DNA of 64,000 nt from Turbatrix aceti (taxonomy: Eukaryota; Nematoda; Chromadorea; Rhabditida; Panagrolaimidae): NCBI GenBank assembly GCA_963969345.1, contig OZ017769.1, positions 744,001-808,000 on the forward strand, read 5' to 3'. Positions within the stretch are counted from its first letter, which is position 1; each line of letters begins with the position of its first letter. A program made the position numbers and the translations under genes. Positions 4,279 through 60,624 of the stretch are shown in pieces. The notes under the pieces were generated by a model that saw only the letters and a list, made by a program, of their open reading frames with translations, did no database searches and had not been told where the DNA came from.

Positions 4279-4283
4279 ATGTG
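4279..4283. repeat. Left target-site duplication (ATGTG) of the retroelement array
   Basis: The five bases ATGTG directly precede the first LTR. The same five bases directly follow the last LTR at 25165-25169, marking the ends of one integration event. Confidence 0.85.
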
Positions 4284-4683
4284 TGCAATGTCCCAACATT
4301 GCCCTTCTTACCCAACATTGCCCAATATTGTTTTAACCCCTTAACAGCTGCTAGGTTAACAGGTGCAACAGGTGCACGGCATGACCTGTGCCATTGCGTG
4401 CCACGGCACTTGACCTAGCACCTAACCCCGCCCCCTTTTTGGGTCCCTATAAAAGGAACCCACACTCCCACACAATTATTCATATATTATCTTAGTAAGT
4501 TATTTGTTCTTAGATTCTTATTATCTTATTATTCATTCATCTTTGTTGTTCATTTATTGTTTGCGTTTAATACTTTGTTCTTTACTACGTTATTTATATT
4601 TTGGTTATCTCATATTCTGTTGTCGAGATAAATATCGCGTTGTATTAGTATCCTTACAGAGGGAACCATACGGGGACACATCA
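4284..4683 (+). repeat. LTR1 (5' LTR, haplotype A)
   Basis: A 400-base LTR with TG...CA ends. It contains TATAAAAGG at about 4449, a plausible core promoter, and ends ...GGGGACACATCA before the PBS at 4687. At the diagnostic positions it matches LTR4 and differs from LTR2 and LTR3. Confidence 0.9.
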
Positions 4684-4686
4684 AAT

Positions 4687-4704
4687 TGGTGCCACGCCCT
4701 AACT
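4687..4704 (+). promoter_or_regulatory. Primer binding site of copy 1
   Basis: TGGTGCCACGCCCTAAC starts three bases after LTR1. It should pair with the 3' end of a tRNA ending GGCACCA. The tRNA identity is not determined. The same site follows LTR2 (11564) and LTR3 (16748). Confidence 0.65.
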
Positions 4705-4762
4705 CTGTAAGTTGATACTTACTTTTTGTTTCCGGAAACACGAATTACCGCCTAGCTAGCGG

Positions 4763-7435
4763 ATGGTTATTACTCGACAACAACTAAACGACATGTCTAC
4801 GTTATTCGAAAAAGGATCCACCTTGGATCAAATCATCAAACAACTACAACTCTTCGCAGGAAGCACCCTGAAATCAATAAACGCCGCTGATAATGCTGTG
4901 AAAGAAGCCGATTTACGACTGACGAAACTGGAAAATACAATGGAAATGATGGCCAAGGAACTCAAGACGCTGATGGAAAATGCTGCAAACGACAACGACA
5001 AACTGAAGAAGACACTGATGGAAAACGCCGAAAACTACTACGAGAGAAAGCTGATGGAAACTGTCGGAACTGACTACAAGGAACTGAAGAAAATGCTGGA
5101 ACAACAAATGATGACCGCGGAAAAGGAACGCGCAGAAATGGAAGGTGAGATTTTAAACATGTTTAAACAATTTCAGGAAATCAAGGAAACGCTGATCAAG
5201 AAAGTGAAAGAAACGGAAGAATTGAAAATCGCGATGCTGAAACCAGGAAAGAGAGAAGCAGTACAAATGGAAAAGGAAAATGAAACGGCGACAGAAAAGG
5301 AAAATGGAACGGCGACAGAAAAGGAAAATGAAACGGCGACAGAAAAGGAAAATGAAACGGCGACAGAAAAGGAAAATGGAACGGCGACAGAAAAGGAAAA
5401 CGAAACGGCGACAATGGCAAAAATGATGGAGAAAATGACAGCGACAATGGAAGCGATGAAGGCAGAAATGGAAGAAATTGCTACGACGAAAAAGCCAGCG
5501 ACAGAAAACAAGAAAACGACAATACTACGACGCGACAACTTCTTTGATCCCAAAGAAACACAATCAACTACGGCAGTAACCCAACTAATCGAACAACTCA
5601 ACGAAATGAAAATCCAACGCGAAATCGAAGCTATGAAAAAGGAACTGGAAGAACAGAAAAAGAATCGAAACAACGCCCCAACCCGTATCATATTTGGTAC
5701 AAAGAACGTCACACATGGAAACCTGGAACTAACCTACGAAACACACGACTCAAACACGAATGGTATTCTCAAAACGGCGCAACTCAACATGCTATCAATC
5801 AATATTCCCGCAGATGAAGTACCCCAATTTACCGGAGATCCAGCACAAGTCTTCACCCAATGGTTACGACAACTCGAACTACAAATGACCAAATACCCAT
5901 TCGAACTCAACGAGCGACGACGTCTTGCCCACCTAGTATCAAAACTCAAAGGAACAGCTCTTCTGGCATACGACTCATTCCCGCCAAACGTCAGAAACAG
6001 CTTCTACGAAGCGACCGAAGCACTAAACCGTCGATTCCCCAACGACCAAGCAAAGAAAAACGCTACAGAATCCTTCGCAAGCTGCTACCAGAACAAAGGA
6101 GAAAAAGTCCACAACTACTACGAACGCCTAGCTACACTTATTTACACCATGATGGAAGGTGAACCAACTGAAATCATCGAAAACGTCCTACTACGCGAAA
6201 CAATCAACCGAATGAAACCCAGTCTACGTGAATACGTCAGCAGCAAAGATCCAGAAACCGTCGAAAAAGCTCTTACTTTAGCTCAACGACAAGAACGAAT
6301 CGAAGAAAAACGTACCCAATCAATATCCTCCGTCAACGAAACGACCAATCAAATAGCCAAAGCTCTAACAATTTCATCAAAGAACCTGCAGAAATGCTTC
6401 AAATGCCAAAAACCTGGACACTTCGCTAATGAATGCCGCACTCTTATTTGTCACTACTGCAACAAACCCGGACACATGGAGAATAACTGCTGGTCAAAGA
6501 ACAACAAGAACCAAAATCAACGATCCCGTACTCAATACTACAACCGCCAACCGTCACCCTACCCAAGATACACAAGAAACAACCACTCCTCCTACAAGAA
6601 CTTCAACCGTAATCGATCGTCATCACCAAGAAACAATCACCGCAATGGACGCGACAACCGACGAAATCATAGCAGAACGCCTGAACACAAAACAACTGTT
6701 AGGTTTGCAAACACAAACCCTATCTACGCAGCGATGAACACTCTACTACCAATCAACATCAATAATTCAACGACTCAAATCAAGAAACCAGACCTATCGA
6801 CAAAATTTCTAATGGCCTTAAGTATAATGGCCATTTTTGTCACGCCATCTACCGCTCTCATACAAGCCGACGACGTACTATTCTGTACAGCAAATGCACC
6901 AACGTCATACTGGACACTTCCAAACAAGCCACCTTGTCATACACCTGAATTTCATACCCTGGATGCTGTAGTGGAAACAGCATGGGATGTCCACAGACCA
7001 AACACAATCGAATACCAGACAACAGCTCATCACTGTCAATGCCGCCGCACAACTCAAACGCATCAACGAAGTTTCTTTGGAACTGACATCTACTCCGAAC
7101 CAATTATTGAACCAGTATCTACAACCGTTGCTGAATGCAAAAGAATGGCTACCGTTCAACTATCAGACCACGGCATACTCCAAAACCAAACCGATTTTTT
7201 TGGAACCAACAACACACTCAACTTTCCCGACTATTGGTTTCCCCGCTACTTATTTGCCGACACCGAATCAGTCATCAACTGCTACCACAGCACAACAAAC
7301 ATCTACACCCGACATGGAACCGAAGAAGTGACAAAGGCTATTCCTTGTCGAGATAAATATCGCGTTGTATTAGTATCCTTACAGAGGGAACCAGACGGGG
7401 ACACATCAAATTGGTGCCACGCCCTAACTCTGTAA
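4763..7435 (+). CDS. Truncated Gag plus partial envelope-like ORF, copy 1
   Basis: This 890-residue ORF matches the first ~870 residues of the full-length polyprotein at 16824. It has an N-terminal coiled coil, an octapeptide repeat (EKEN[E/G]TAT), a Gag capsid-like core, two CCHC zinc knuckles, Arg/Asn-rich nucleocapsid, an internal hydrophobic segment and the start of the Cys-rich envelope-like region. At about 7344 it jumps into the 3' end of an LTR and stops after 29 residues encoded by LTR and PBS. It carries several private bases before about 5835 (haplotype A) and matches the other copies afterwards. It lacks protease and polymerase, so it is at most a Gag-type protein. Confidence 0.85.
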   Translation: MVITRQQLNDMSTLFEKGSTLDQIIKQLQLFAGSTLKSINAADNAVKEADLRLTKLENTMEMMAKELKTLMENAANDNDKLKKTLMENAENYYERKLMETVGTDYKELKKMLEQQMMTAEKERAEMEGEILNMFKQFQEIKETLIKKVKETEELKIAMLKPGKREAVQMEKENETATEKENGTATEKENETATEKENETATEKENGTATEKENETATMAKMMEKMTATMEAMKAEMEEIATTKKPATENKKTTILRRDNFFDPKETQSTTAVTQLIEQLNEMKIQREIEAMKKELEEQKKNRNNAPTRIIFGTKNVTHGNLELTYETHDSNTNGILKTAQLNMLSINIPADEVPQFTGDPAQVFTQWLRQLELQMTKYPFELNERRRLAHLVSKLKGTALLAYDSFPPNVRNSFYEATEALNRRFPNDQAKKNATESFASCYQNKGEKVHNYYERLATLIYTMMEGEPTEIIENVLLRETINRMKPSLREYVSSKDPETVEKALTLAQRQERIEEKRTQSISSVNETTNQIAKALTISSKNLQKCFKCQKPGHFANECRTLICHYCNKPGHMENNCWSKNNKNQNQRSRTQYYNRQPSPYPRYTRNNHSSYKNFNRNRSSSPRNNHRNGRDNRRNHSRTPEHKTTVRFANTNPIYAAMNTLLPININNSTTQIKKPDLSTKFLMALSIMAIFVTPSTALIQADDVLFCTANAPTSYWTLPNKPPCHTPEFHTLDAVVETAWDVHRPNTIEYQTTAHHCQCRRTTQTHQRSFFGTDIYSEPIIEPVSTTVAECKRMATVQLSDHGILQNQTDFFGTNNTLNFPDYWFPRYLFADTESVINCYHSTTNIYTRHGTEEVTKAIPCRDKYRVVLVSLQREPDGDTSNWCHALTL
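5274..5412 (+). repeat. 24-base coding tandem repeat in gag, copy 1
   Basis: The unit GAAAAGGAAAATGAAACGGC plus GACA (EKEN[E/G]TAT) is tandemly repeated. Copy 1 has one unit fewer than copies 2 and 3, which accounts for the 890 versus 898 residue difference. Confidence 0.85.
7344..7408 (+). repeat. Partial LTR (3' 65 bases) inside unit 1
   Basis: Only the end of the LTR (TTGTCGAGATAAATATCGCG to ...ACACATCA) is present, joined directly to truncated envelope-like sequence. It is followed by a PBS, leader and a second gag start. It has the haplotype B base (CCAGACGGGG). Confidence 0.85.
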
Positions 7436-7487
7436 GTTGATACTTACTTTTTGTTTCCGGAAACACGAATTACCGCCTAGCTAGCGG

Positions 7488-7811
7488 ATGGTTATTACAC
7501 GACAACAACTAAACGACATGTCTACGTTATTCGAAAAGGGATCCACCTTGGATCAAATCATCAAACAACTACAATTATTCGCAGGAAGCACCCTGAAATC
7601 AATAAACGCCGCTGACAATGCTGTGAAAGAAGCCGATTTACGACTGACGAAACTGGAAAATACAATGGAAATGATGGCCAAGGAACTCAAGACGCTGATG
7701 GAAAACGCTGCAAACGACAACGACAAACTGAGAAGTGACAAAGGCTACACAGAAGAAAGTGGTTTTCTTTTTTATGCCATCGCCGCCGATGCCGTCGCCG
7801 CCGGCAGCTAG
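7488..7811 (+). pseudogene. Second, truncated gag start in unit 1
   Basis: The first 81 codons repeat the Gag N-terminus (haplotype B bases). Homology stops at 7731. It is followed by 16 bases copied from the envelope-like region (7732-7747) and then by unrelated sequence giving an 107-residue dead-end ORF. It is a rearrangement product, not a functional gene. Confidence 0.75.
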
Positions 7812-10038: not shown

Positions 10039-10998
10039 AAATAATTTTTTTCATGCATTAAATGGACAGAGATGGACGATGTTTTGAACAAAAAAATTAT
10101 TTATGTACTACGTTGTTGACAAAATTTTTTTTCAAGGATTTGAAATTTTTGAAACTGAGATTTTGTTTATTACATAAACAGTTTTTGAATTTTCGTTCGT
10201 TGAGAAAAATATCTTGAAATATTCACAATTTTTTTATTTCAATAAATCTTTTTCAGTCAATTAACCCAAATAACACACATTATTACTTGTGCCCTAGTTT
10301 TTCTTCCCGCGTTGATGTAATGTGGCTTATCATGTTGCCTTCCTTTTTGCGGTTGTTAATTCTTGGAGTTGACAGACACACGCATTTTTGGTGTCATGGA
10401 TTTTTCTGGAAAACAGACAAATAGGTGTTCTGGTACTTTCATGCTTATCTTCCATAAAACGGCTTAATTTTTTTTATTGCATTTTTAAAATAAAAAAATA
10501 ATTACTTTTGGCTTTAATTAACCTAAAATAGTTTTTTGCAAGCAATTTGAGTTAAAATTAACGGATATTTTTTAGCGTACTGGAAATAATGTTATTTTTT
10601 TGGATTTTTTGAACTTTATTTTTAACTCCGGATTGGATCTCAAATTTCAGTTTAACTCTGGCTGCGGTCCAAAAAGCCTGTTCAAATTTGATTTTTGGTC
10701 TTATTAGCACTCTTTTTAATTAAGCTCGAATGAAATCTGCTCTATAACTTTTTTTTTATTGAATTACTAATATTCCCGGGATTCCATGTGATTTGTTCCT
10801 TTACTTTTACTTTACTTTATTACTCTTACTCGTGCATAATATTTAATTTACGGTATAATATTTAATTTACGGTAACGCAGTTAAAAATGATTAACACAGT
10901 GGAATTTGACAAAATAGTCTAAACATTCTGTTTGTTCCTGTGCGCAACTGGAAAGATACGAAATTTGAGATGAGAAATATCTAAAATGTTTACCTGCC
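10039..10998 (+). other. Non-element segment in unit 1, right part
   Basis: This is the AT-rich continuation of the segment interrupted by the nested element. It is matched by about 15388-16344 in unit 2. It includes a short tandem duplication of ATAATATTTAATTTACGGT near 10850. I see no coding signal. Confidence 0.5.
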
Positions 10999-11560
10999 TG
11001 CAATGTCCCAACATTGCCCTTCTTACCCAACATTGCCCAATATTGTTTTAACCCCTTAACAGCTGCTAGGTTAACAGGTGCAACAGGTGCACGGCATGAC
11101 CTGTGCCATTGCGTGCCACGGCACTTGACCTAGCACCTAACCCCGCCCCCTTTTTGGGTCCCTATAAAAGGAACCCACACTCCCACACAATTATTCATAT
11201 ATTATCTTAGTAAGTTATTTGTTCTTAGATTCTTATTTATTTATTTATTTATTTATTTATTTCACCATTACTCAGTGGTTAGTTATCATTAGACCAGATG
11301 TTAGGAGGCACAAATGATGTCCACGTAGGTGTAAATGTCTCGATTCGTTTTGGGCGCGATTTCTTCTTCCCATCGTTGCTGTGGTCTTAGATTCTTATTA
11401 TCTTATTATTCATTCATCTTTGTTGTTCATTTATTGTTTGCGTTTAATACTTTGTTCTTTATTACGTTATCTATATTTTGGTTATCTCATATTCTGTTGT
11501 CGAGATAAATATCGCGTTGTATTAGTATCCTTACAGAGGGAACCAGACGGGGACACATCA
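10999..11560 (+). repeat. LTR2 (haplotype B) with retroposon insertion
   Basis: A 400-base LTR interrupted by 162 bases (insert plus target duplication), giving 562 bases. It is preceded by non-element sequence (TTTACCTGCC), not by a purine tract. It carries the haplotype B bases. Confidence 0.88.
11223..11399 (-). mobile_element. 5'-truncated non-LTR retroposon fragment in LTR2
   Basis: About 147 bases (11238-11384) are flanked by a 15-base target duplication (TCTTAGATTCTTATT at 11223 and 11385). On the minus strand the insert ends in an (AAAT)n tail. A long target duplication and a 3' microsatellite tail are typical of LINE or SINE target-primed insertion. LTR1, LTR3 and LTR4 lack it. Confidence 0.8.
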
Positions 11561-11639
11561 AATTGGTGCCACGCCCTAACTCTGTAAGTTGATACTTACT
11601 TTTTGTTTCCGGAAACACGAATTACCGCCTAGCTAGCGG

Positions 11640-14336
11640 ATGGTTATTACACGACAACAACTAAACGACATGTCTACGTTATTCGAAAAGGGATCCACCT
11701 TGGATCAAATCATCAAACAACTACAATTATTCGCAGGAAGCACCCTGAAATCAATAAACGCCGCTGACAATGCTGTGAAAGAAGCCGATTTACGACTGAC
11801 GAAACTGGAAAATACAATGGAAATGATGGCCAAGGAACTCAAGACGCTGATGGAAAATGCTGCAAACGACAACGACAAACTGAAGAAGACACTGATGGAA
11901 AACGCCGAAAACTACTACGAGAGAAAGCTGATGGAAACTGTCGGAACTGACTACAAGGAACTGAAGAAAATGCTGGAACAACAAATGATGACCGCGGAAA
12001 AGGAACGCGCAGAAATGGAAGGTGAGATTTTAAACATGTTTAAACAATTTCAGGAAATCAAGGAAACGCTGATCAAGAAAGTGAAAGAAATGGAAGAATT
12101 GAAAATCGCGATGCTGAAACCAGGAAAGAGAGAAGCAGTACAAATGGAAAAGGAAAATGAAACGGCGACAGAAAAGGAAAATGAAACGGCGACAGAAAAG
12201 GAAAATGAAACGGCGACAGAAAAGGAAAATGGAACGGCGACAGAAAAGGAAAATGAAACGGCGACAGAAAAGGAAAATGGAACGGCGACAGAAAAGGAAA
12301 ACGAAACGGCGACAATGGCAAAAATGATGGAGAAAATGACAGCGACAATGGAAGCGATGAAGGCTGAAATGGAAGAAATTGCTACGACGAAAAAGCCAGC
12401 GACAGAAAACAAGAAAACGACAATACTACGACGCGACAACTTCTTTGATCCCAAAGAAACACAATCAACTACGGCAGTAACCCAACTAATCGAACAACTC
12501 AACGAAATGAAAATCCAACGCGAAATCGAAGCTATGAAAAAGGAACTGGAAGAACAGAAAAAGAATCGAAACAACGCCCCAACCCGTATCATATTTGGTA
12601 CAAAGAACGTCACACATGGAAACCTGGAACTAGCCTACGAAACACACGACTCAAACACGAATGGTATTCCCAAAACGGCGCAACTCAACATGCTATCAAT
12701 CAATATTCCCGCAGATGAAGTACCCCAATTCACTGGAGATCCAGCACAAGTCTTCACCCAATGGTTACGACAACTCGAACTACAAATGACCAAATACCCA
12801 TTCGAACTCAACGAGCGACGACGTCTTGCCCACCTAGTATCAAAACTCAAAGGAACAGCTCTTCTGGCATACGACTCATTCCCGCCAAACGTCAGAAACA
12901 GCTTCTACGAAGCGACCGAAGCACTAAACCGTCGATTCCCCAACGACCAAGCAAAGAAAAACGCTACAGAATCCTTCGCAAGCTGCTACCAGAACAAAGG
13001 AGAAAAAGTCCACAACTACTACGAACGCCTAGCTACACTTATTTACACCATGATGGAAGGTGAACCAACTGAAATCATCGAAAACGTCCTACTACGCGAA
13101 ACAATCAACCGAATGAAACCCAGTCTACGTGAATACGTCAGCAGCAAAGATCCAGAAACCGTCGAAAAAGCTCTTACTTTAGCTCAACGACAAGAACGAA
13201 TCGAAGAAAAACGTACCCAATCAATATCCTCCGTCAACGAAACGACCAATCAAATAGCCAAAGCTCTAACAATTTCATCAAAGAACCTGCAGAAATGCTT
13301 CAAATGCCAAAAACCTGGACACTTCGCTAATGAATGCCGCACTCTTATTTGTCACTACTGCAACAAACCCGGACACATGGAGAATAACTGCTGGTCAAAG
13401 AACAACAAGAACCAAAATCAACGATCCCGTACTCAATACTACAACCGCCAACCGTCACCCTACCCAAGATACACAAGAAACAACCACTCCTCCTACAAGA
13501 ACTTCAACCGTAATCGATCGTCATCACCAAGAAACAATCACCGCAATGGACGCGACAACCGACGAAATCATAGCAGAACGCCTGAACACAAAACAACTGT
13601 TAGGTTTGCAAACACAAACCCTATCTACGCAGCGATGAACACTCTACTACCAATCAACATCAATAATTCAACGACTCAAATCAAGAAACCAGACCTATCG
13701 ACAAAATTTCTAATGGCCTTAAGTATAATGGCCATTTTTGTCACGCCATCTACCGCTCTCATACAAGCCGACGACGTACTATTCTGTACAGCAAATGCAC
13801 CAACGTCATACTGGACACTTCCAAACAAGCCACCTTGTCATACACCTGAATTTCATACCCTGGATGCTGTAGTGGAAACAGCATGGGATGTCCACAGACC
13901 AAACACAATCGAATACCAGACAACAGCTCATCACTGTCAATGCCGCCGCACAACTCAAACGCATCAACGAAGTTTCTTTGGAACTGACATCTACTCCGAA
14001 CCAATTATTGAACCAGTATCTACAACCGTTGCTGAATGCAAAAGAATGGCTACCGTTCAACTATCAGACCACGGCATACTCCAAAACCAAACCGATTTTT
14101 TTGGAACCAACAACACACTCAACTTTCCCGACTATTGGTTTCCCCGCTACTTATTTGCCGACACCGAATCAGTCATCAACTGCTACCACAGCACAACAAA
14201 CATCTACACCCGACATGGAACCGAAGAAGTGACAAAGGCTATTCCTTGTCGAGATAAATATCGCGTTGTATTAGTATCCTTACAGAGGGAACCAGACGGG
14301 GACACATCAAATTGGTGCCACGCCCTAACTCTGTAA
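11640..14336 (+). CDS. Truncated Gag plus partial envelope-like ORF, copy 2
   Basis: This 898-residue ORF has the same architecture and the same breakpoint as copy 1 (jump into the LTR end at about 14245). It is haplotype B throughout and nearly identical to the first 870 residues of the full-length element, which has a private Ser-to-Arg change at about 18164. The zinc knuckles and internal hydrophobic segment are intact, and there is no protease or pol. It could make Gag-like protein from LTR2, although that promoter carries the retroposon insertion downstream of its TATA box. Confidence 0.85.
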   Translation: MVITRQQLNDMSTLFEKGSTLDQIIKQLQLFAGSTLKSINAADNAVKEADLRLTKLENTMEMMAKELKTLMENAANDNDKLKKTLMENAENYYERKLMETVGTDYKELKKMLEQQMMTAEKERAEMEGEILNMFKQFQEIKETLIKKVKEMEELKIAMLKPGKREAVQMEKENETATEKENETATEKENETATEKENGTATEKENETATEKENGTATEKENETATMAKMMEKMTATMEAMKAEMEEIATTKKPATENKKTTILRRDNFFDPKETQSTTAVTQLIEQLNEMKIQREIEAMKKELEEQKKNRNNAPTRIIFGTKNVTHGNLELAYETHDSNTNGIPKTAQLNMLSINIPADEVPQFTGDPAQVFTQWLRQLELQMTKYPFELNERRRLAHLVSKLKGTALLAYDSFPPNVRNSFYEATEALNRRFPNDQAKKNATESFASCYQNKGEKVHNYYERLATLIYTMMEGEPTEIIENVLLRETINRMKPSLREYVSSKDPETVEKALTLAQRQERIEEKRTQSISSVNETTNQIAKALTISSKNLQKCFKCQKPGHFANECRTLICHYCNKPGHMENNCWSKNNKNQNQRSRTQYYNRQPSPYPRYTRNNHSSYKNFNRNRSSSPRNNHRNGRDNRRNHSRTPEHKTTVRFANTNPIYAAMNTLLPININNSTTQIKKPDLSTKFLMALSIMAIFVTPSTALIQADDVLFCTANAPTSYWTLPNKPPCHTPEFHTLDAVVETAWDVHRPNTIEYQTTAHHCQCRRTTQTHQRSFFGTDIYSEPIIEPVSTTVAECKRMATVQLSDHGILQNQTDFFGTNNTLNFPDYWFPRYLFADTESVINCYHSTTNIYTRHGTEEVTKAIPCRDKYRVVLVSLQREPDGDTSNWCHALTL
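14245..14309 (+). repeat. Partial LTR inside unit 2
   Basis: Same 65-base LTR end and same junction as at 7344-7408, showing that units 1 and 2 descend from one rearranged molecule. Confidence 0.85.
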
Positions 14337-14388
14337 GTTGATACTTACTTTTTGTTTCCGGAAACACGAATTACCGCCTAGCTAGCGG

Positions 14389-14712
14389 ATGGTTATTACA
14401 CGACAACAACTAAACGACATGTCTACGTTATTCGAAAAGGGATCCACCTTGGATCAAATCATCAAACAACTACAATTATTCGCAGGAAGCACCCTGAAAT
14501 CAATAAACGCCGCTGACAATGCTGTGAAAGAAGCCGATTTACGACTGACGAAACTGGAAAATACAATGGAAATGATGGCCAAGGAACTCAAGACGCTGAT
14601 GGAAAATGCTGCAAACGACAACGACAAACTGAGAAGTGACAAAGGCTACACAGAAGAAAGTGGTTTTCTTTTTTATGCCATCGCCGCCGATGCCGTCGCC
14701 GCCGGCAGCTAG
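14389..14712 (+). pseudogene. Second, truncated gag start in unit 2
   Basis: A copy of the 7488-7811 arrangement with the same 16-base envelope-derived patch at the junction. Confidence 0.75.
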
Positions 14713-16344: not shown

Positions 16345-16744
16345 TGCAATGTCCCAACATTGCCCTTCTTACCCAACATTGCCCAATATTGTTTTAACCC
16401 CTTAACAGCTGCTAGGTTAACAGGTGCAACAGGTGCACGGCATGACCTGTGCCATTGCGTGCCACGGCACTTGACCTAGCACCTAACCCCGCCCCCTTTT
16501 TGGGTCCCTATAAAAGGAACCCACACTCCCACACAATTATTCATATATTATCTTAGTAAGTTATTTGTTCTTAGATTCTTATTATCTTATTATTCATTCA
16601 TCTTTGTTGTTCATTTATTGTTTGCGTTTAATACTTTGTTCTTTATTACGTTATCTATATTTTGGTTATCTCATATTCTGTTGTCGAGATAAATATCGCG
16701 TTGTATTAGTATCCTTACAGAGGGAACCAGACGGGGACACATCA
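16345..16744 (+). repeat. LTR3 (haplotype B), 5' LTR of the full-length element
   Basis: A 400-base LTR with an intact TATAAAAGG at about 16510 and the PBS at 16748. It differs from LTR4 at a few positions, although the two flank the same internal region. Confidence 0.9.
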
Positions 16745-16747
16745 AAT

Positions 16748-16765
16748 TGGTGCCACGCCCTAACT
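16748..16765 (+). promoter_or_regulatory. Primer binding site of the full-length element
   Basis: TGGTGCCACGCCCTAACT begins three bases after LTR3. It is the presumed tRNA primer site for minus-strand synthesis. Confidence 0.65.
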
Positions 16766-16823: not shown

Positions 16824-19800
16824 ATGGTTATTACACGACAACAACTAAACGACATGTCTACGTTATTCGAAAAGGGATCCACCTTGGATCAAATCATCAA
16901 ACAACTACAATTATTCGCAGGAAGCACCCTGAAATCAATAAACGCCGCTGACAATGCTGTGAAAGAAGCCGATTTACGACTGACGAAACTGGAAAATACA
17001 ATGGAAATGATGGCCAAGGAACTCAAGACGCTGATGGAAAATGCTGCAAACGACAACGACAAACTGAAGAAGACACTGATGGAAAACGCCGAAAACTACT
17101 ACGAGAGAAAGCTGATGGAAACTGTCGGAACTGACTACAAGGAACTGAAGAAAATGCTGGAACAACAAATGATGACCGCGGAAAAGGAACGCGCAGAAAT
17201 GGAAGGTGAGATTTTAAACATGTTTAAACAATTTCAGGAAATCAAGGAAACGCTGATCAAGAAAGTGAAAGAAATGGAAGAATTGAAAATCGCGATGCTG
17301 AAACCAGGAAAGAGAGAAGCAGTACAAATGGAAAAGGAAAATGAAACGGCGACAGAAAAGGAAAATGAAACGGCGACAGAAAAGGAAAATGAAACGGCGA
17401 CAGAAAAGGAAAATGGAACGGCGACAGAAAAGGAAAATGAAACGGCGACAGAAAAGGAAAATGGAACGGCGACAGAAAAGGAAAACGAAACGGCGACAAT
17501 GGCAAAAATGATGGAGAAAATGACAGCGACAATGGAAGCGATGAAGGCTGAAATGGAAGAAATTGCTACGACGAAAAAGCCAGCGACAGAAAACAAGAAA
17601 ACGACAATACTACGACGCGACAACTTCTTTGATCCCAAAGAAACACAATCAACTACGGCAGTAACCCAACTAATCGAACAACTCAACGAAATGAAAATCC
17701 AACGCGAAATCGAAGCTATGAAAAAGGAACTGGAAGAACAGAAAAAGAATCGAAACAACGCCCCAACCCGTATCATATTTGGTACAAAGAACGTCACACA
17801 TGGAAACCTGGAACTAGCCTACGAAACACACGACTCAAACACGAATGGTATTCCCAAAACGGCGCAACTCAACATGCTATCAATCAATATTCCCGCAGAT
17901 GAAGTACCCCAATTCACTGGAGATCCAGCACAAGTCTTCACCCAATGGTTACGACAACTCGAACTACAAATGACCAAATACCCATTCGAACTCAACGAGC
18001 GACGACGTCTTGCCCACCTAGTATCAAAACTCAAAGGAACAGCTCTTCTGGCATACGACTCATTCCCGCCAAACGTCAGAAACAGCTTCTACGAAGCGAC
18101 CGAAGCACTAAACCGTCGATTCCCCAACGACCAAGCAAAGAAAAACGCTACAGAATCCTTCGCACGCTGCTACCAGAACAAAGGAGAAAAAGTCCACAAC
18201 TACTACGAACGCCTAGCTACACTTATTTACACCATGATGGAAGGTGAACCAACTGAAATCATCGAAAACGTCCTACTACGCGAAACAATCAACCGAATGA
18301 AACCCAGTCTACGTGAATACGTCAGCAGCAAAGATCCAGAAACCGTCGAAAAAGCTCTTACTTTAGCTCAACGACAAGAACGAATCGAAGAAAAACGTAC
18401 CCAATCAATATCCTCCGTCAACGAAACGACCAATCAAATAGCCAAAGCTCTAACAATTTCATCAAAGAACCTGCAGAAATGCTTCAAATGCCAAAAACCT
18501 GGACACTTCGCTAATGAATGCCGCACTCTTATTTGTCACTACTGCAACAAACCCGGACACATGGAGAATAACTGCTGGTCAAAGAACAACAAGAACCAAA
18601 ATCAACGATCCCGTACTCAATACTACAACCGCCAACCGTCACCCTACCCAAGATACACAAGAAACAACCACTCCTCCTACAAGAACTTCAACCGTAATCG
18701 ATCGTCATCACCAAGAAACAATCACCGCAATGGACGCGACAACCGACGAAATCATAGCAGAACGCCTGAACACAAAACAACTGTTAGGTTTGCAAACACA
18801 AACCCTATCTACGCAGCGATGAACACTCTACTACCAATCAACATCAATAATTCAACGACTCAAATCAAGAAACCAGACCTATCGACAAAATTTCTAATGG
18901 CCTTAAGTATAATGGCCATTTTTGTCACGCCATCTACCGCTCTCATACAAGCCGACGACGTACTATTCTGTACAGCAAATGCACCAACGTCATACTGGAC
19001 ACTTCCAAACAAGCCACCTTGTCATACACCTGAATTTCATACCCTGGATGCTGTAGTGGAAACAGCATGGGATGTCCACAGACCAAACACAATCGAATAC
19101 CAGACAACAGCTCATCACTGTCAATGCCGCCGCACAACTCAAACGCATCAACGAAGTTTCTTTGGAACTGACATCTACTCCGAACCAATTATTGAACCAG
19201 TATCTACAACCGTTGCTGAATGCAAAAGAATGGCTACCGTTCAACTATCAGACCACGGCATACTCCAAAACCAAACCGATTTTTTTGGAACCAACAACAC
19301 ACTCAACTTTCCCGACTATTGGTTTCCCCGCTACTTATTTGCCGACACCGAATCAGTCATCAACTGCTACCACAGCACAACAAACATCTACACCCGACAT
19401 GGAACCGAAGAAGTGACAAAGGCTATTCCTTCGTCAATACCCTGCTACTATCGACATGGATCCTGCCAATTAGAAGATCATGGAGTTCTAATTTGGACGC
19501 CAGACCAAACTCATCAATGCAAGTACATTCAAATGAGGAAGATGGAAGGCTCATTTGGTGGAAACGTTTTCATTGCCGAAAACAAACAATTCGCCCTATC
19601 ATTTCACCCCAACAACGAACAAATCAGAACGAACGACTGCAACACCACATTTCTACTATCAGATCAAGGATACGCTGTACCACTCCGTACGTGGAACTCA
19701 ACTATAAGTAAACGTGATAACAAAATCACGCAGAAACCACGAATCAAACGCCAATCCGGAATTGTTCTCACTGAACAATTCGCTGCTCAACTAACGGCAC

Positions 19801-22800
19801 TTCAAAGAAACACGGACAACACCGCCAAACAATTCTTCACCGCATCAGTCCGCCATGTCTGCTCAGCATTGGAAGCTATTGCCGACGCAACCGTTGCACT
19901 AGCCACAGCAAATCCGACACTTCTCGCTCGAGAACTCTTGAATCAAACGTCAATCAAAGCAAAGCTAATCACCGCTACAACACTTGAAGTCAAAGCCTGT
20001 ACCGAAATTCCATTCGAAACAATTACATTCCTACCTCAGAAACAATGCTACGACCGACTACCAGTGGAATTCGTCTATCATCATCACAAACTACAAGCCT
20101 TTCTAGATCCAATCTCTCGGATACTGGAACCGACAGCAAAAGAAACGCCATGCTCAGAATCACCATACATCTTCATTGACCGACACAATGGACAGCTACA
20201 ACGCTACGATCAAACGACAGGACACATCGAATTTGCCCACAAACTCATCGAGATTGGCAGATTCAGAACTATCGACTTTCCAGAAATCAACATTGGAGAC
20301 AAGCACCAGATTTACACCAACTTGGTATTGACCAACCTCTCAGAAGTCTTTTCATTCCAACGCTTTGAAAAAGATCTATCAAATCATCTGAACGTCCAAG
20401 AAATGATAGAAACCTACCAATATTCCCTCGACAATGGACTACTGCTACAAACAACCCAGCCCTACAAAACCGTCAAAGAAAAGAAAGCCATGCACTTTGC
20501 CGAATCGCTTGTTGCCAACGGCCTCTTTGGTTTTCTCACTGGTGGTATTTTCGCCCCATCTCAAATATGGATATTCGCCTGCTGCACATACGTCACAGCC
20601 GCAGTAATTGCCAAAATCATCATGCCCGCCTTGGTACAAGAAATCATGCGATACACCAATCTACCCTTTCTGACAAACCGCGTGATCAACAACGTACAAC
20701 AATGGAACAGACAACGCAACGAACGACGACAAGAACGAGAAAGACAACGACAAGAAGCAGAAAGTCTTCCCCTGCAGAACTTAGTTCCTACACGAACTTT
20801 CACCAATCAAACCTGTGCTACTACAAAAGCCCACTTGAACGGCTACCTCAACGGAATTCCCGCAAGAATGCTACTCGACACCGGAGCTGTATTTTCTATC
20901 ATCCACAAAAGCTTCATTGATCAACATCAACTCAAAACACGACAAGCCGAAGAAGAAATCAAACTTGTCGGAATCAACAATACCCCCATACCATGCCGAC
21001 ACGTCGCACCAATCGTCATCACACTTCAAGAAAGAAATATTCACTGCGAACCAATCGTACTGGAAGAAGACCACTTCGCCAACTGCTACGACATTCTACT
21101 AGGAGAAGATATTCTCGAACCAAATGGCTTCATCATCGACTACACCAGCAAAACCTGTCACATCGGAAAGACAGTCGAGAAAATGACAGACGCCTACGCC
21201 TCAATGCAAATCCAAGAAGCAGAAGAAGACATTATCAACCTACCAAAAACCGACCTCTCCGCTACCTATACCGAAGAATTGGCAGAACTCATCAACAAAT
21301 ATTCCAACCTATTCAGCCGAAACGACAAAGACCTCGGCAGATGCAAGATCGCCGCACCAAAAATGATTGTCACAAGCGACAAACCAACAACTACCCAACC
21401 ATACCGAATACCAGAAACAGTCAAGCCCGCAGTCGACACCTTCATCAAAGAAATGCTAGAGACCGGCGTACTCATTGAATCAACCACTCCCTGGGTATCA
21501 GGCATAGTGGTTGTGCCAAAGAAAAATGGCAAGCTACGACCATGCGTGGATTTCCGCCGACTCAACAACGTCACAGAAATGGACCCATATCCACTGCCAA
21601 GAATCGAAACACTTCTCAACAAAACATCAGGATGCTATTGGTATAGCACACTTGATATGAAATCTGGTTTTCTTCAAATTCCACTTGATGAAGATACCAG
21701 TAGATATTGTGGCATCATCACCGAGACCGGAATATTCCAATTCACAACGATGCCTTTTGGCTTGAAAAATGCACCAGCTATATTCTGCCGCGTTATGTCA
21801 ACAGTACTACAAGGACTAGAAGAATTTGCCCTAGCATACATGGACGACATCATCATCTTCACACGCAGCCCCGACCCAAAAGAACACCTGGAAGCTCTAT
21901 CAATGGTATTTCAACGACTCAAAGAATACGGCCTCAAGATACACGCCGAGAAATGCTCCCTCGCCAACCGCAGTGTCACATACGTGGGTCACCGTATCGA
22001 CATGGATGGAATAAGCCCATCTGATGCTCATCTAAATTCCATACGGAACTACCCTCCACCCACAACCGTAACAGAAATCAAAAGATTCCTGGGCCTAGCC
22101 AACTTCTTCAGGAAATTCATCCCTCACTTCGCCGCCATCGCCAGACCCCTCACGGAGCTGACACGCAAAAACGTACCATTTCAATGGGAAGAAGCACAAC
22201 AAATTGCTTTCAAAACCCTTGTGGAAGAACTCACTCAACCACCAATCCTGACATCACCCGACTACACTCAGAAATTCATCATCCATACAGATGCAAGTCT
22301 AATCGGACTCGCAGGAGCAATTCTACAGAAAAACGACGACGAATCAACTCACGCCATCACCTACTTCTCACGACAACTTACCCCCGCCGAAAAGAACTAC
22401 TCAACAACCGAACTGGAATTATTGGCACTAATTGCCACACTGGATCATTTTCGACATATTCTATATGGAACCAAAATCATATGGAACACAGATCACAACC
22501 CATTAACTCATCTCAACGACACACCATCCAAATCTTCAAGACTCAACAGATGGTTACTACAACTACAAGACTTTGACATTACGTCCTGCTACCTGAAAGG
22601 ACCCGACAACGTACTCGCCGACGCCCTCTCCAGAGCAATATCGCCAACCCGAATCAACACGTCATACTTCGGAATGGAACCAGAAGATGAAGAAGAAGAA
22701 CAGGAAGAAGAAGAAGACAACAAATCAACCGACGCAGTAACTTCAAACAATCAAGTCATCAACAAGAACGACCAAAATACAAATTCCATCAACCAACTCA

Positions 22801-42057: not shown

Positions 42058-43340
42058 GGCCAGTGTGTTTTTGTTATCTGCTCTGATGGTTCGGATGTTG
42101 ATCAACACACTGTATCCAGAAAAACACGCTAACAATGACCGTAAGCCAAAAATATAATCACACCCAATTACAACTTTTCTTTAGACCCCGCCTACAAGCT
42201 TCCCCTGAACTACTCAGATGCCATGGGTCGCTACTTCTACTGGCCTCTAACCCAGGTAGTATACCTCCAAGACCCCGTAAAACAGGATGAATGTCTCGGG
42301 GGTTGTTTTGATTCTTTCGAGGCCGGTCCGATATACGATGTCCGCTGTGGCCCCCAGTTCAACTTTGATCACAGGTGCATGGGTGGCTCGTTCATCTCCC
42401 ACGACTTCGGCATTATCGGTATCGGCTATGCAGGTGCAAAAGGAGGAGCACAAGTTAAATACGCCCTTGGCGTGGCGAGACTACCGGTCGCTCACCCCGA
42501 ATTGCCCATCGGCCAGGTAGATCCCTACTATTGGGGTGCGTTCAAGGCTGTCTACCTGGAGGGAGGGCTAGCAAACGACTTTCGAGCCTATCGAAGACGG
42601 TTTCCCCACTATAACATCCTCCTGCTCGGATTCTCGATGGGAGGAGCAATGGCCACGATGACAGCTGCCCATATCGCTCTCGAGTTTCCCGAGTTTCAGA
42701 ACAGTGATCGATTGAGGGTCGTATCCTACGGCATGGTGCTATTCGCCGACGTCGAATTTGCAGCCAACGTCAACAAACTGGTACCACATCAATTTCGAAT
42801 TGTACGTTCTCAAGATCCCGCGCCACGTGGTAGTGAGTACGTCAAGTTTGAAAACACTAACGTGTCTGCTTTTCATCATCCTGGCATTGATGTAGGTTGG
42901 ATTTTTTTTGGGGGCTGGAGCATCGGATACAATGTTTTTTGGGACCAAAAAAAATATTGATCTAGCTGAGTTATGCTTCGACAAAAGGTCAAAAAAATTG
43001 TTTCATCGTAAATTGAATTTGAAAATAGGTCAAAATGGCTATTTCTGCACTTTTAATGTTGAACCCCTCATTTTTTAGCCTTGAAGATAATAAAAACATT
43101 CAAATTTTTCAGATTGCCTATCCAAACGACATGCTGCCCGGAGATCCATACGAAGTGTGTCCTGAATTTTATCACTTCAACAGCTGCACTTACAGTGACA
43201 GAATGCAGCTCGAAGACAAGTATCGTGCAAAATGGAATACCACTCTCGGATTGCACATTTACTACTACACCAGTGATTTTATGGGAAGGTGTAAGCTGTG
43301 TGATAAGAATCTCATTAAGTCCTTAGTCATTGATAACTAA
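42056..43340 (+). CDS. Secreted class 3 (alpha/beta hydrolase) lipase
   Basis: Exons 42056-42140, 42185-42891 and 43113-43340 join to 339 residues. The N-terminus (MASVFLLSALMVRMLIN) looks like a signal peptide. The nucleophile elbow is GFSMGG (Ser about 179). The likely triad partners are Asp about 239 (SQDPAP) and His about 312 (LGLHIYYY), in the order expected for lipase_3 proteins. Cys pairs and the C-terminal block FYHFNSCTYSD resemble nematode secreted lipases. It would hydrolyse acylglycerols outside the cell or in the gut or lysosome. Intron 2 (221 bases) is spliced from GAT/GTAGGT to TTTTTCAG. Without splicing the ORF runs on to a stop at 42960. Confidence 0.88.
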
Positions 43341-58352: not shown

Positions 58353-60624
58353 TCAGCCGTTCAGCTGCGCTTCGAGATCCGCTTCAAGCTCGTCTTCATC
58401 TGAGTCAAATTCATCGTTTCCGACCATTCCGTCATCGTCGGGGTCGATTTCTTCTCGGGATGCTCGTTTCGGTTCCGGTTCTTCCTCCTCCTCGTCGCCG
58501 AAGGTCTCGATGACGCGTCTTCGCTTGCGTGAGTCAATGTCTCCGTTGCGCAGTGCTTCGTCGTCCATGTCATCGTCATCATCGTCGGCATCTGAATCCC
58601 GGGTGCCGGCGAGGGAGAGTTGACGTCTGAGCTTTTCCTGCGCCCCATTTTCTTCGTCTTCTTCCTTTTCTTCGTCTTCTCCCGTCTCATCCGGAGCCTT
58701 CGCTTCTGCCTTGACCGCCGTTACCGTAGCCGATGGCTCAGGTGCATCAGCTTCACTGTCGCTGCCCCGAACGTCATCGTCGTCGTCGTCGTCATCAGCG
58801 GCGTTGTTGCTGGACGAATCCGACTCATCGGTGTCGTCATCGTCGCCGATGAGTGCGTTGACCTCGTCTTCCATTGTCTTGATGTCGTCCCGGCTGAACG
58901 TAGCGAGATTGGGCATGGCAGGAGGCGACTCGGATCCAGATGGCGCTTCTCGGCGTTTTTTCTTGAAATACTTCTCATCCAGATTTTCGTGGGCGTATTC
59001 TTCTTTCGGCACGCTGATCCACTTGGCAGTGCAGGTATAGAGCCATTCAGGGGTTACGACCGGGATTTTCTTCTTCAGTGCTTGTCTGCATTTTCTAAAA
59101 AAAACAAAAAATATATATATAAAAAATTATTTTTCCCCCAAAACCAACTCACTCAGTGGAAGGTCTCGCAGCGATGAGTACAGTAACCTGATCAGTGATG
59201 CTATCAACTACCGTAGCTCCAAACTGGACGCAGAGCCGGTAGATGAGTGCTTTGCTCTTTTCCATGCCGAGTGGGATCACCCCGGAAAGAGCCACGACCT
59301 CACTCGCGAGCACCCGGTTCCTCATAGCCGACACGATCGATGACACGTCTACGACCTCTTTGGTCTCGTCGTAGTGGTTGAAAAACCGTTGATGAACCTC
59401 GACGAGGACCCGTTCGACGTCCTGGAGCACGTCATCGCTGTCAACGACCAGCGCGGGGAAGAGCGGGGGTTTTGGGGGCTCGACAGCCTCTTTTTCCTCT
59501 TCGACCTCGGATTCGGAGGCTTTTCTCGTGGCTGGCTCTTCTGCGGGCGCTGCTTCGGCGTCGGTTTTCGCCTGGGGTGCCTCGGCAGACTCCGCAGCCT
59601 GCTTCTGAAGCTGCTGTTCATGCATTCTCAAAATCTTGGCAGGAGCGTTGATGTCGTCGACCTCGGAAAAGTACTTGTAGGGCCTGATGCGGACAAGGGC
59701 CTCGCTGTACTGCCAGACGTCGTCCCGGTCGTCGATGATGACGATCAGCTTCCGCTGCTCGACGGACGGAAAGAGTGCAGTGATGTTATCCGTTTTGTGG
59801 TGCGCGGAGGTGAGTTCGTCTCTCGACATGATCCTGTGGCTGAAGAACTTCTTCTCCGGGTCGAGGATGCCCGCGATGATGTGCGCGTACTGTCTCTGGC
59901 CGAACGTAATGATGTGCATTTCGTAGAGCTCAGCCATTCGCTCGAGGAAAGCCCGGGTGTACGGGCGGACCTTGGTGTAGTAGAAATCCCGGTGGCAGAG
60001 GTAGCGGTGGATGTCCTCGCGGTTCTCCCTCGTTGGAACCGGGCGATTTGTCGTGTGAATGAGCGTTTGATCGAGATCGACGAGGAGGACGAGTTTTCGA
60101 TGCCGAAGTGTCTGTTCGTGGTCTTCAGCTCCTATCTTGTTCGCCAGATCGTTGGAAACCATGAGTTCGGGGACGTGGTGAATCATCGAGACCGAAGCTG
60201 CGGTCGGCGGGGCCTGGGGTCGCACAGACGCATTCGTTGGGGTATCCTCCGCTCTAAAAACATTTTTATAAAATTTGTTTGGCGTCAAAAAAAATGAATC
60301 AACTTACAGCGTTCTCAAATCCAATCCGCATTCTCCACAGATATTTTTCATGACGATGGAATGCGGACACCCGGAAGCGACATCGGCTAGGGAGTCTCCG
60401 ATGTGGATGATCGCTCCCCGCTTGAGGGTGCGGTTCAGCGAGATCAGGCCGTTTGCCAGGGGAGACCGGTAGATAAGCGTGTCCTTCGCAGGGGCCCCCT
60501 TGGCCCGGTAGGCGCAGAGCCCTGAGTTCGGCGTCACGACGCTGCCCTCGGAAGCACGGAAGCCAAGGAAGAGGAATTCGTCTTCCGGGGTCGCGCCTTC
60601 ATGCCGGAAGAGTATTTTGGTCAT
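58353..60624 (-). CDS. CTDP1: RNA polymerase II CTD phosphatase FCP1 (CTDP1)
   Basis: Exons 60624-60308, 60253-59153 and 59094-58353 join to 719 residues. The catalytic FCP homology domain has the DxDxT nucleophile motif (LLVDLDQTLIHT, Asp about 165), KVRPYTRAFLERM and VIIDDRDDVWQYS. A BRCT domain follows (about 420-490, IPVVTPEWLYTCTAKW), then long acidic Asp/Glu runs, a nuclear-type basic cluster (RKRRRVIE) and an acidic tail. It dephosphorylates the Pol II C-terminal repeats to recycle polymerase. An acceptor (TTTTGCAG) lies about 41 bases before the ATG. It sits 260 bases downstream of RBBP6. Confidence 0.95.

Follow-up and report, generated by a model that had tools for sequence, protein, structure and literature searches.

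A nematode Ty3/gypsy lineage with a predicted class III fusion glycoprotein in frame between gag and pol

We analyzed a 64,000-nucleotide stretch of the Turbatrix aceti genome (assembly GCA_963969345.1, contig OZ017769.1, positions 744,001 to 808,000), hereafter the window, and find in it a Ty3/gypsy long terminal repeat (LTR) retrotransposon in which an envelope-like (env) region lies between gag and pol. Positions 16824-24722 of the forward strand form a single open frame of 2632 amino acids with zero internal stops, along which Pfam domains occur in the order capsid and CCHC, Monjiviricetes_fusion, retropepsin, reverse transcriptase (RT), RNase H and integrase (Table 1). A first-pass annotation of the window had proposed such an uninterrupted frame with an envelope-like region between the CCHC knuckles and the protease, and our analysis confirms it. 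We are highly confident of the type of element, the order and frame of its parts, the family and predicted fold of the glycoprotein, its motifs, the selection acting on it and its spread among families. We further consider it probable that a class III fusogen has stood between gag and pol of this nematode element, in the frame of both, since an ancestor, that the fusogen is kept by selection, and that it is made as part of one polyprotein.

The 765 residues between the last CCHC knuckle and the protease motif contain 17 cysteines and 12 sequons, in keeping with the earlier description of the region as rich in both. The positions given there for a signal-like hydrophobic segment, a furin-type RIKR motif and a membrane segment likewise hold; we place these from residue 690, at 973-976 and at 1248-1266. 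The hydrophobic segments occur at the same env places in families A-F and at locus L040 of the related elements described below, which speaks for membrane segments; the available stretches of family G and the second H locus start inside env, so that the signal segment lies outside their coverage. R332 and R335 of the env piece, which belong to the R-x-x-R motif, are invariant in seven of seven aligned rows, and the C-terminal flank of the anchor is positively charged in 10 of the 10 sequences examined. The profile search that the annotation had suggested yields a match to PF24664 (Monjiviricetes_fusion) at 6.6e-10, over the family cut-off, while PF00606 matches the H loci (2.2e-9 and 1.2e-5) below its own cut-off. 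The predicted structure resembles herpesvirus glycoprotein B (gB), a class III fold. Sequence profile and predicted fold thus support the assignment of the region as a viral-type fusion glycoprotein encoded in frame between gag and pol. When the env sequence was searched singly against the Protein Data Bank nothing matched, and its profile gave three chance-level matches there (best E 0.2).

The same evidence bears on whether the region could instead be an extended Gag, a different kind of non-membrane domain or an insertion confined to this copy. We reject these readings and regard them as hardly credible given the PF24664 and PF00606 matches, the gB-like fold, the relatives in other worms and the spread within the genome, where the env piece has 53 match places (59.9 Mb, fragments counted, 22-100% identity). 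These places, together with selection at the protein level, indicate that the env region is not a chance reading.

Twenty-one loci combine env, RT and gag matches in a frame of equal reported length, and fall into families A (6), B (3), C (1), D (4), E (4), F (1) and G (2). At two further loci, of family H, a single frame runs from env into a protease motif; for the H locus on C1, the RT match falls in another reported frame. Some copies are broken, as by a stop in env of one B copy. Every RT match of at least 45% identity over at least 200 residues (23 of 23) has env upstream. Env-less elements, a label given for no nearby env match and shorter frames (up to 1566 codons), are also found in the genome; at the three of these loci with a gag match the gag-to-RT gap is 0.72 kb, versus 2.88 kb between the same query positions in the window element. 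A long Thr-rich, mucin-like stretch separates the envelope halves in families G and H (L039, L040 and L056). Eight frames of 417-418 codons match the capsid piece at 38% (C4:773501, C5:9296354, C6:83533, C18:2666, C1:3210561, C2:238722, C2:355207 and C2:1243970), alongside one of 290 codons at C2:12083504, and the eight possibly represent a gag-only element or a domesticated gag family.

In an unrooted tree of RT sequences, families A-F, G and H are grouped against 11 env-less elements by a branch with support 98/97, with long-branch warnings for F, E and two env-less rows; the support is 100/98 once four outside proteins are added, with such warnings for F, P0009 and P0010. One row labelled env-less, L075, sits with the env-bearing rows and has the same RT as H, and on its sequence we take it to be a decayed H copy. 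Because L075 carries that label, two env gain/loss changes are counted by the tool instead of one, and 0 of 200 bootstrap trees have a single change. The env tree agrees on the grouping ((A,B),C),D, with deep branches that are long and unsettled.

The ratio of nonsynonymous to synonymous substitution (dN/dS), from one copy per family, is 0.198 for gag, 0.081 and 0.022 for the N- and C-terminal env halves and 0.075 for protease-RT between A and B; between A and C the corresponding values are 0.317, 0.098, 0.119 and 0.109. With synonymous sites close to saturation, these figures are approximate. They nevertheless indicate that selection acts on the env protein and constrains it to about the same degree as the enzymes. 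Seven copies, including a broken one, are almost identical to each other, and together with the near-identical LTRs they point to recent movement.

Searches of protein collections yielded seven related proteins in all, which are database gene models. P0008 of Panagrellus redivivus (2285 aa) and P0011 (2245 aa) have gag, CCHC, env, protease, RT and integrase in this order, and P0010 of Panagrolaimus davidi (1757 aa) matches gag, env, protease (weakly) and RT. P0009 of P. superbus begins inside env and extends to integrase, env runs into protease in P0005 of P. davidi and P0006 of Meloidogyne enterolobii, and P0007, also of M. enterolobii, consists of env only. A taxonomy look-up places Panagrellus and Meloidogyne in Tylenchina, to which Panagrolaimus also belongs.

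These features suggest how the element might work. An ancestral insertion would have placed a class III (gB/Monjiviricetes-type) glycoprotein in frame between gag and pol, and one full-length RNA would give one polyprotein. Gag would be synthesised in the cytosol, after which the internal signal segment would bring the chain into the endoplasmic reticulum (ER); Env would fold and be glycosylated in the ER lumen until its anchor halts transfer, and protease, RT, RNase H and integrase would again be synthesised in the cytosol. After a cut by signal peptidase, Gag would keep a hydrophobic anchor at its C-terminus; Env would be cleaved at R-x-x-R by a furin-like protease, and the element's own protease would release the Pol enzymes. 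The two membrane passes are suggested by hydropathy and flanking charge, and we also infer the cleavages, membrane-anchored Gag, single message, particle assembly and membrane fusion. One polyprotein that crosses the ER membrane twice, with no splice signals needed, is the simplest reading. We propose more tentatively, and without quite leaning towards it, that the single-frame Gag-Env-Pol layout is both ancestral to a large Ty3 lineage of nematodes and obligatory in it. The signal peptide would then both insert Env and leave Gag anchored, and a flavivirus-like polyprotein made from one message would bring capsid, fusogen and enzymes to the same membrane. Flavivirus polyproteins join a cytosolic capsid via an internal signal to luminal glycoproteins, followed by cytosolic enzymes; flaviviruses are unrelated RNA viruses, and the likeness is one of analogy.

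Several observations weigh against this interpretation. At E 0.1, PF24664 finds nothing in the env of family F (whose link to A is a 26% match, E 1.4e-28), the precomputed domain list of P0008 lacks PF24664, and the env of G and H is detected solely through that profile. Confidence in the env model is modest (predicted local distance difference test 62.7, predicted template modelling score 0.34, 180 of 575 residues below 50), and its root-mean-square deviation from gB is about 10 Å. Family E breaks the flank-charge rule for the signal segment (-2 versus 0) and P0010 is tied. The protease match of P0010 is weak, as are the gag matches in F (3.3e-5) and G (2.1e-4). Env searches of the protein collection and viral contigs, by single sequence and by profile, reached no exogenous virus, the profile recovering the same three proteins from the collection as the single sequence. 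A particle with equimolar Gag, Env and Pol would be unusual. Finally, the env reference point is preceded by acceptor-like motifs in C (at 290 nt), D (at 522 nt) and E (at 86 nt).

These motifs make separate, trans-spliced env messages possible in C, D and E. Env could be translated from its own message, produced by cis-splicing or by trans-splicing of spliced leader 1 (SL1) to give an env(-pol) mRNA, with the full-length RNA serving as genome and Gag-Pol message and the shared frame being merely economical packing. A precedent is Cer1 of C. elegans, whose CERV protein comes, in the available text of its descriptions, from a spliced message with and without SL1 (PMC3315495; PMC10309623). As good sites occur three times per 8.8 kb of the window element, however, the upstream acceptors in C, D and E are within chance. 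In the interval that starts 900 nt ahead of the env reference point and ends 300 nt past it, the best acceptor scores in A and B are 3.8 and 4.1 (2.6 and 1.4 upstream only), where good sites score at least 8.5; these come from a C. elegans-like matrix and are a rough guide only. On the sense strand of the element there are one donor-like site and three acceptor-like sites, compared with seven of each on the opposite strand, a difference for which base composition may account in part. An env message would, moreover, still read through into protease, since env has no stop of its own. We therefore consider a separate env message unlikely and continue to favor the single polyprotein.

The region past integrase has 13 genome matches, eight in family A copies at 88-100% and the remaining five short or weak. 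Within it, CTTTCAG at 24032-24038 resembles a splice acceptor and has an in-frame ATG shortly downstream, at 24048; by analogy with CERV of Cer1 this may mark a separate, possibly trans-spliced, tail message. Exact SL1 22-mers, which identify the genome as that of a nematode, number 145, with 0 in a backward control; 98 are followed by GTAA and 47 are not. In a family E element (L070 and L088; C1:1812153 and C1:1820505) the 574-nt LTRs are 100% identical and carry an exact SL1 22-mer at LTR position 496 with no splice donor after it, and it looks as if SL1 became fixed in this LTR via a trans-spliced RNA.

The use to which Env is put is a distinct question. It may be kept for spread between cells of one animal, by germline or vesicle fusion, instead of for infection of new hosts, which would be compatible with the polyprotein. 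The copies observed are endogenous, those of family A are nearly identical, and the viral contigs searched contain no exogenous relative; the present evidence nevertheless fits an infectious role equally, and both uses require a working fusogen. We regard restriction to spread within the animal as rather doubtful, if slightly less so than a separate env message.

The assignment to Ty3/gypsy (Metaviridae) is based on domain order and LTR features, the RT trees covering this genome's elements and search hits. Gag contains a capsid and CCHC knuckles (at 18480 and 18534), pol has the order protease, RT, RNase H, integrase, and there are TG...CA LTRs, a primer site assigned by position and a 5-bp target duplication around a larger block; in the family E element, TGGTGCCACGACC comes after the LTR, for comparison with the primer site of the window element. 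The perfect 5-bp ATGTG repeat flanks the outermost LTRs of a 20.9-kb block that contains the open-framed copy and both internally deleted ones. Over 401 of 401 bases, the left outer LTR is identical to the right LTR. On these two grounds, 4284-25164 most likely began as one recent insertion, later enlarged by duplications. There is no target duplication at the full-length copy's own 5' edge, as this copy forms part of the larger block. Elsewhere in the window, Pfam identifies pieces of ordinary genes for a protein kinase (1084-1773), a class 3 lipase (42223-42960) and a NIF-type phosphatase (59149-60288); Rfam at gathering thresholds and a tRNA scan gave no matches across the 64 kb.

Table 1. 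Features of the element and of the surrounding block in the window.
Feature	Position	Strand	Remarks
Target site duplication, left	4279..4283	+	ATGTG
Rearranged, internally deleted copy	4284..7735	+	890-aa frame: gag and first 229 residues of env piece
Second rearranged, internally deleted copy	10998..14636	+	898-aa frame: gag and first 229 residues of env piece
5' LTR	16345..16744	+	400 nt, TG...CA ends, 3 differences from 3' LTR
Probable primer binding site TGGTGCCACGCCC	16748..16760	+	assigned by position, 3 nt past 5' LTR
Gag: long N part with 24-bp repeat array, PNMA-type capsid, two CCHC knuckles	16824..18746	+	PF14893 2.5e-7; PF00098 (zf-CCHC) 1.2e-8
Internal signal-like hydrophobic segment, Gag/Env junction	18891..18947	+	from residue 690; mean hydropathy 2.07 over 19 aa
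Env N-terminal (surface-like) subunit, Cys-rich, RIKR at end	18942..19751	+	predicted gB-like fold; R332/R335
Furin-type cleavage motif RIKR	19740..19751	+	residues 973-976; R-x-x-R in 7/7 aligned rows
Env C-terminal (fusion-like) subunit	19752..20564	+	PF24664 6.6e-10 over 19749-20165
Membrane anchor, then Arg-rich tail	20565..20621	+	residues 1248-1266; hydropathy 2.02
Aspartic protease	20838..21176	+	LLDTGA at 20871; PF08284 2.9e-9 (best retropepsin); PF13975 1.4e-7
RT and RNase H	21513..22481	+	PF00078 (RVT_1) 3.1e-38; PF17919 1.2e-33
Integrase, zinc-binding and core	22944..23426	+	PF17921 2.4e-16; PF00665 4.9e-12
Tail past integrase, ~280 residues	23877..24722	+	no Pfam match
3' LTR	24765..25164	+	400 nt, TG...CA, 3 differences from 5' LTR
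Target site duplication, right	25165..25169	+	ATGTG

Among LTR elements with a membrane fusion protein, errantiviruses (gypsy and its kin) have env after pol, expressed from a separate message and of another fusion class, and Atlas virus is reportedly similar in its env position and separate message, again with a fusion protein of another class. The possession of such a protein is what they share with the window element; env as a separate reading frame downstream of pol is not, as the window env precedes protease in the same frame. Further parallels are drawn here from the available portions of the cited papers. Dingle, a Ty3/gypsy element of the annelid Dimorphilus, likewise combines a Ty3/gypsy pol with a herpesvirus-gB-like envelope, but its env-like protein lies downstream of integrase (PMC7854359), whereas the window env lies before protease. 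Anakin elements of mosquitoes are likewise LTR elements that have captured a glycoprotein of chuvirus type, but belong to BEL/Pao (PMC7642597), and the available text of a later paper from that group lists chuvirus-type sequences in Nematoda with no clear gypsy capture (PMC10084718). Cer1 resembles the window element as a nematode Ty3/gypsy element with a stop-free single gag-pol frame, a large Gag with capsid and CCHC, and an extra protein past integrase; it differs in that CERV is nuclear and no envelope internal to Gag-Pol appears in the descriptions consulted (PMC10309623; PMC3315495). The Cer1 lineage is marked by a single gag-pol frame, a coiled-coil Gag and a CERV-type tail made from a spliced mRNA; of these traits, a single frame and a tail are present in the window element, the tail being likened to CERV by position.

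Within the open-access literature searched, which leaves most subscription papers outside its scope, we found no description of env between gag and pol. Envelopes of gB-like or chuvirus type in LTR elements are known, and what is new is the gag-env-pol layout, its persistence and its likely topology. Expression and topology are directly testable, since open-framed, nearly identical copies are available in a nematode. The usual view is that LTR elements gain env as a 3'-end gene with a message to itself. A clade that has long carried a class III fusogen midway along its polyprotein would represent another route from retrotransposon to retrovirus-like element, and would imply different rules of stoichiometry, topology and assembly.
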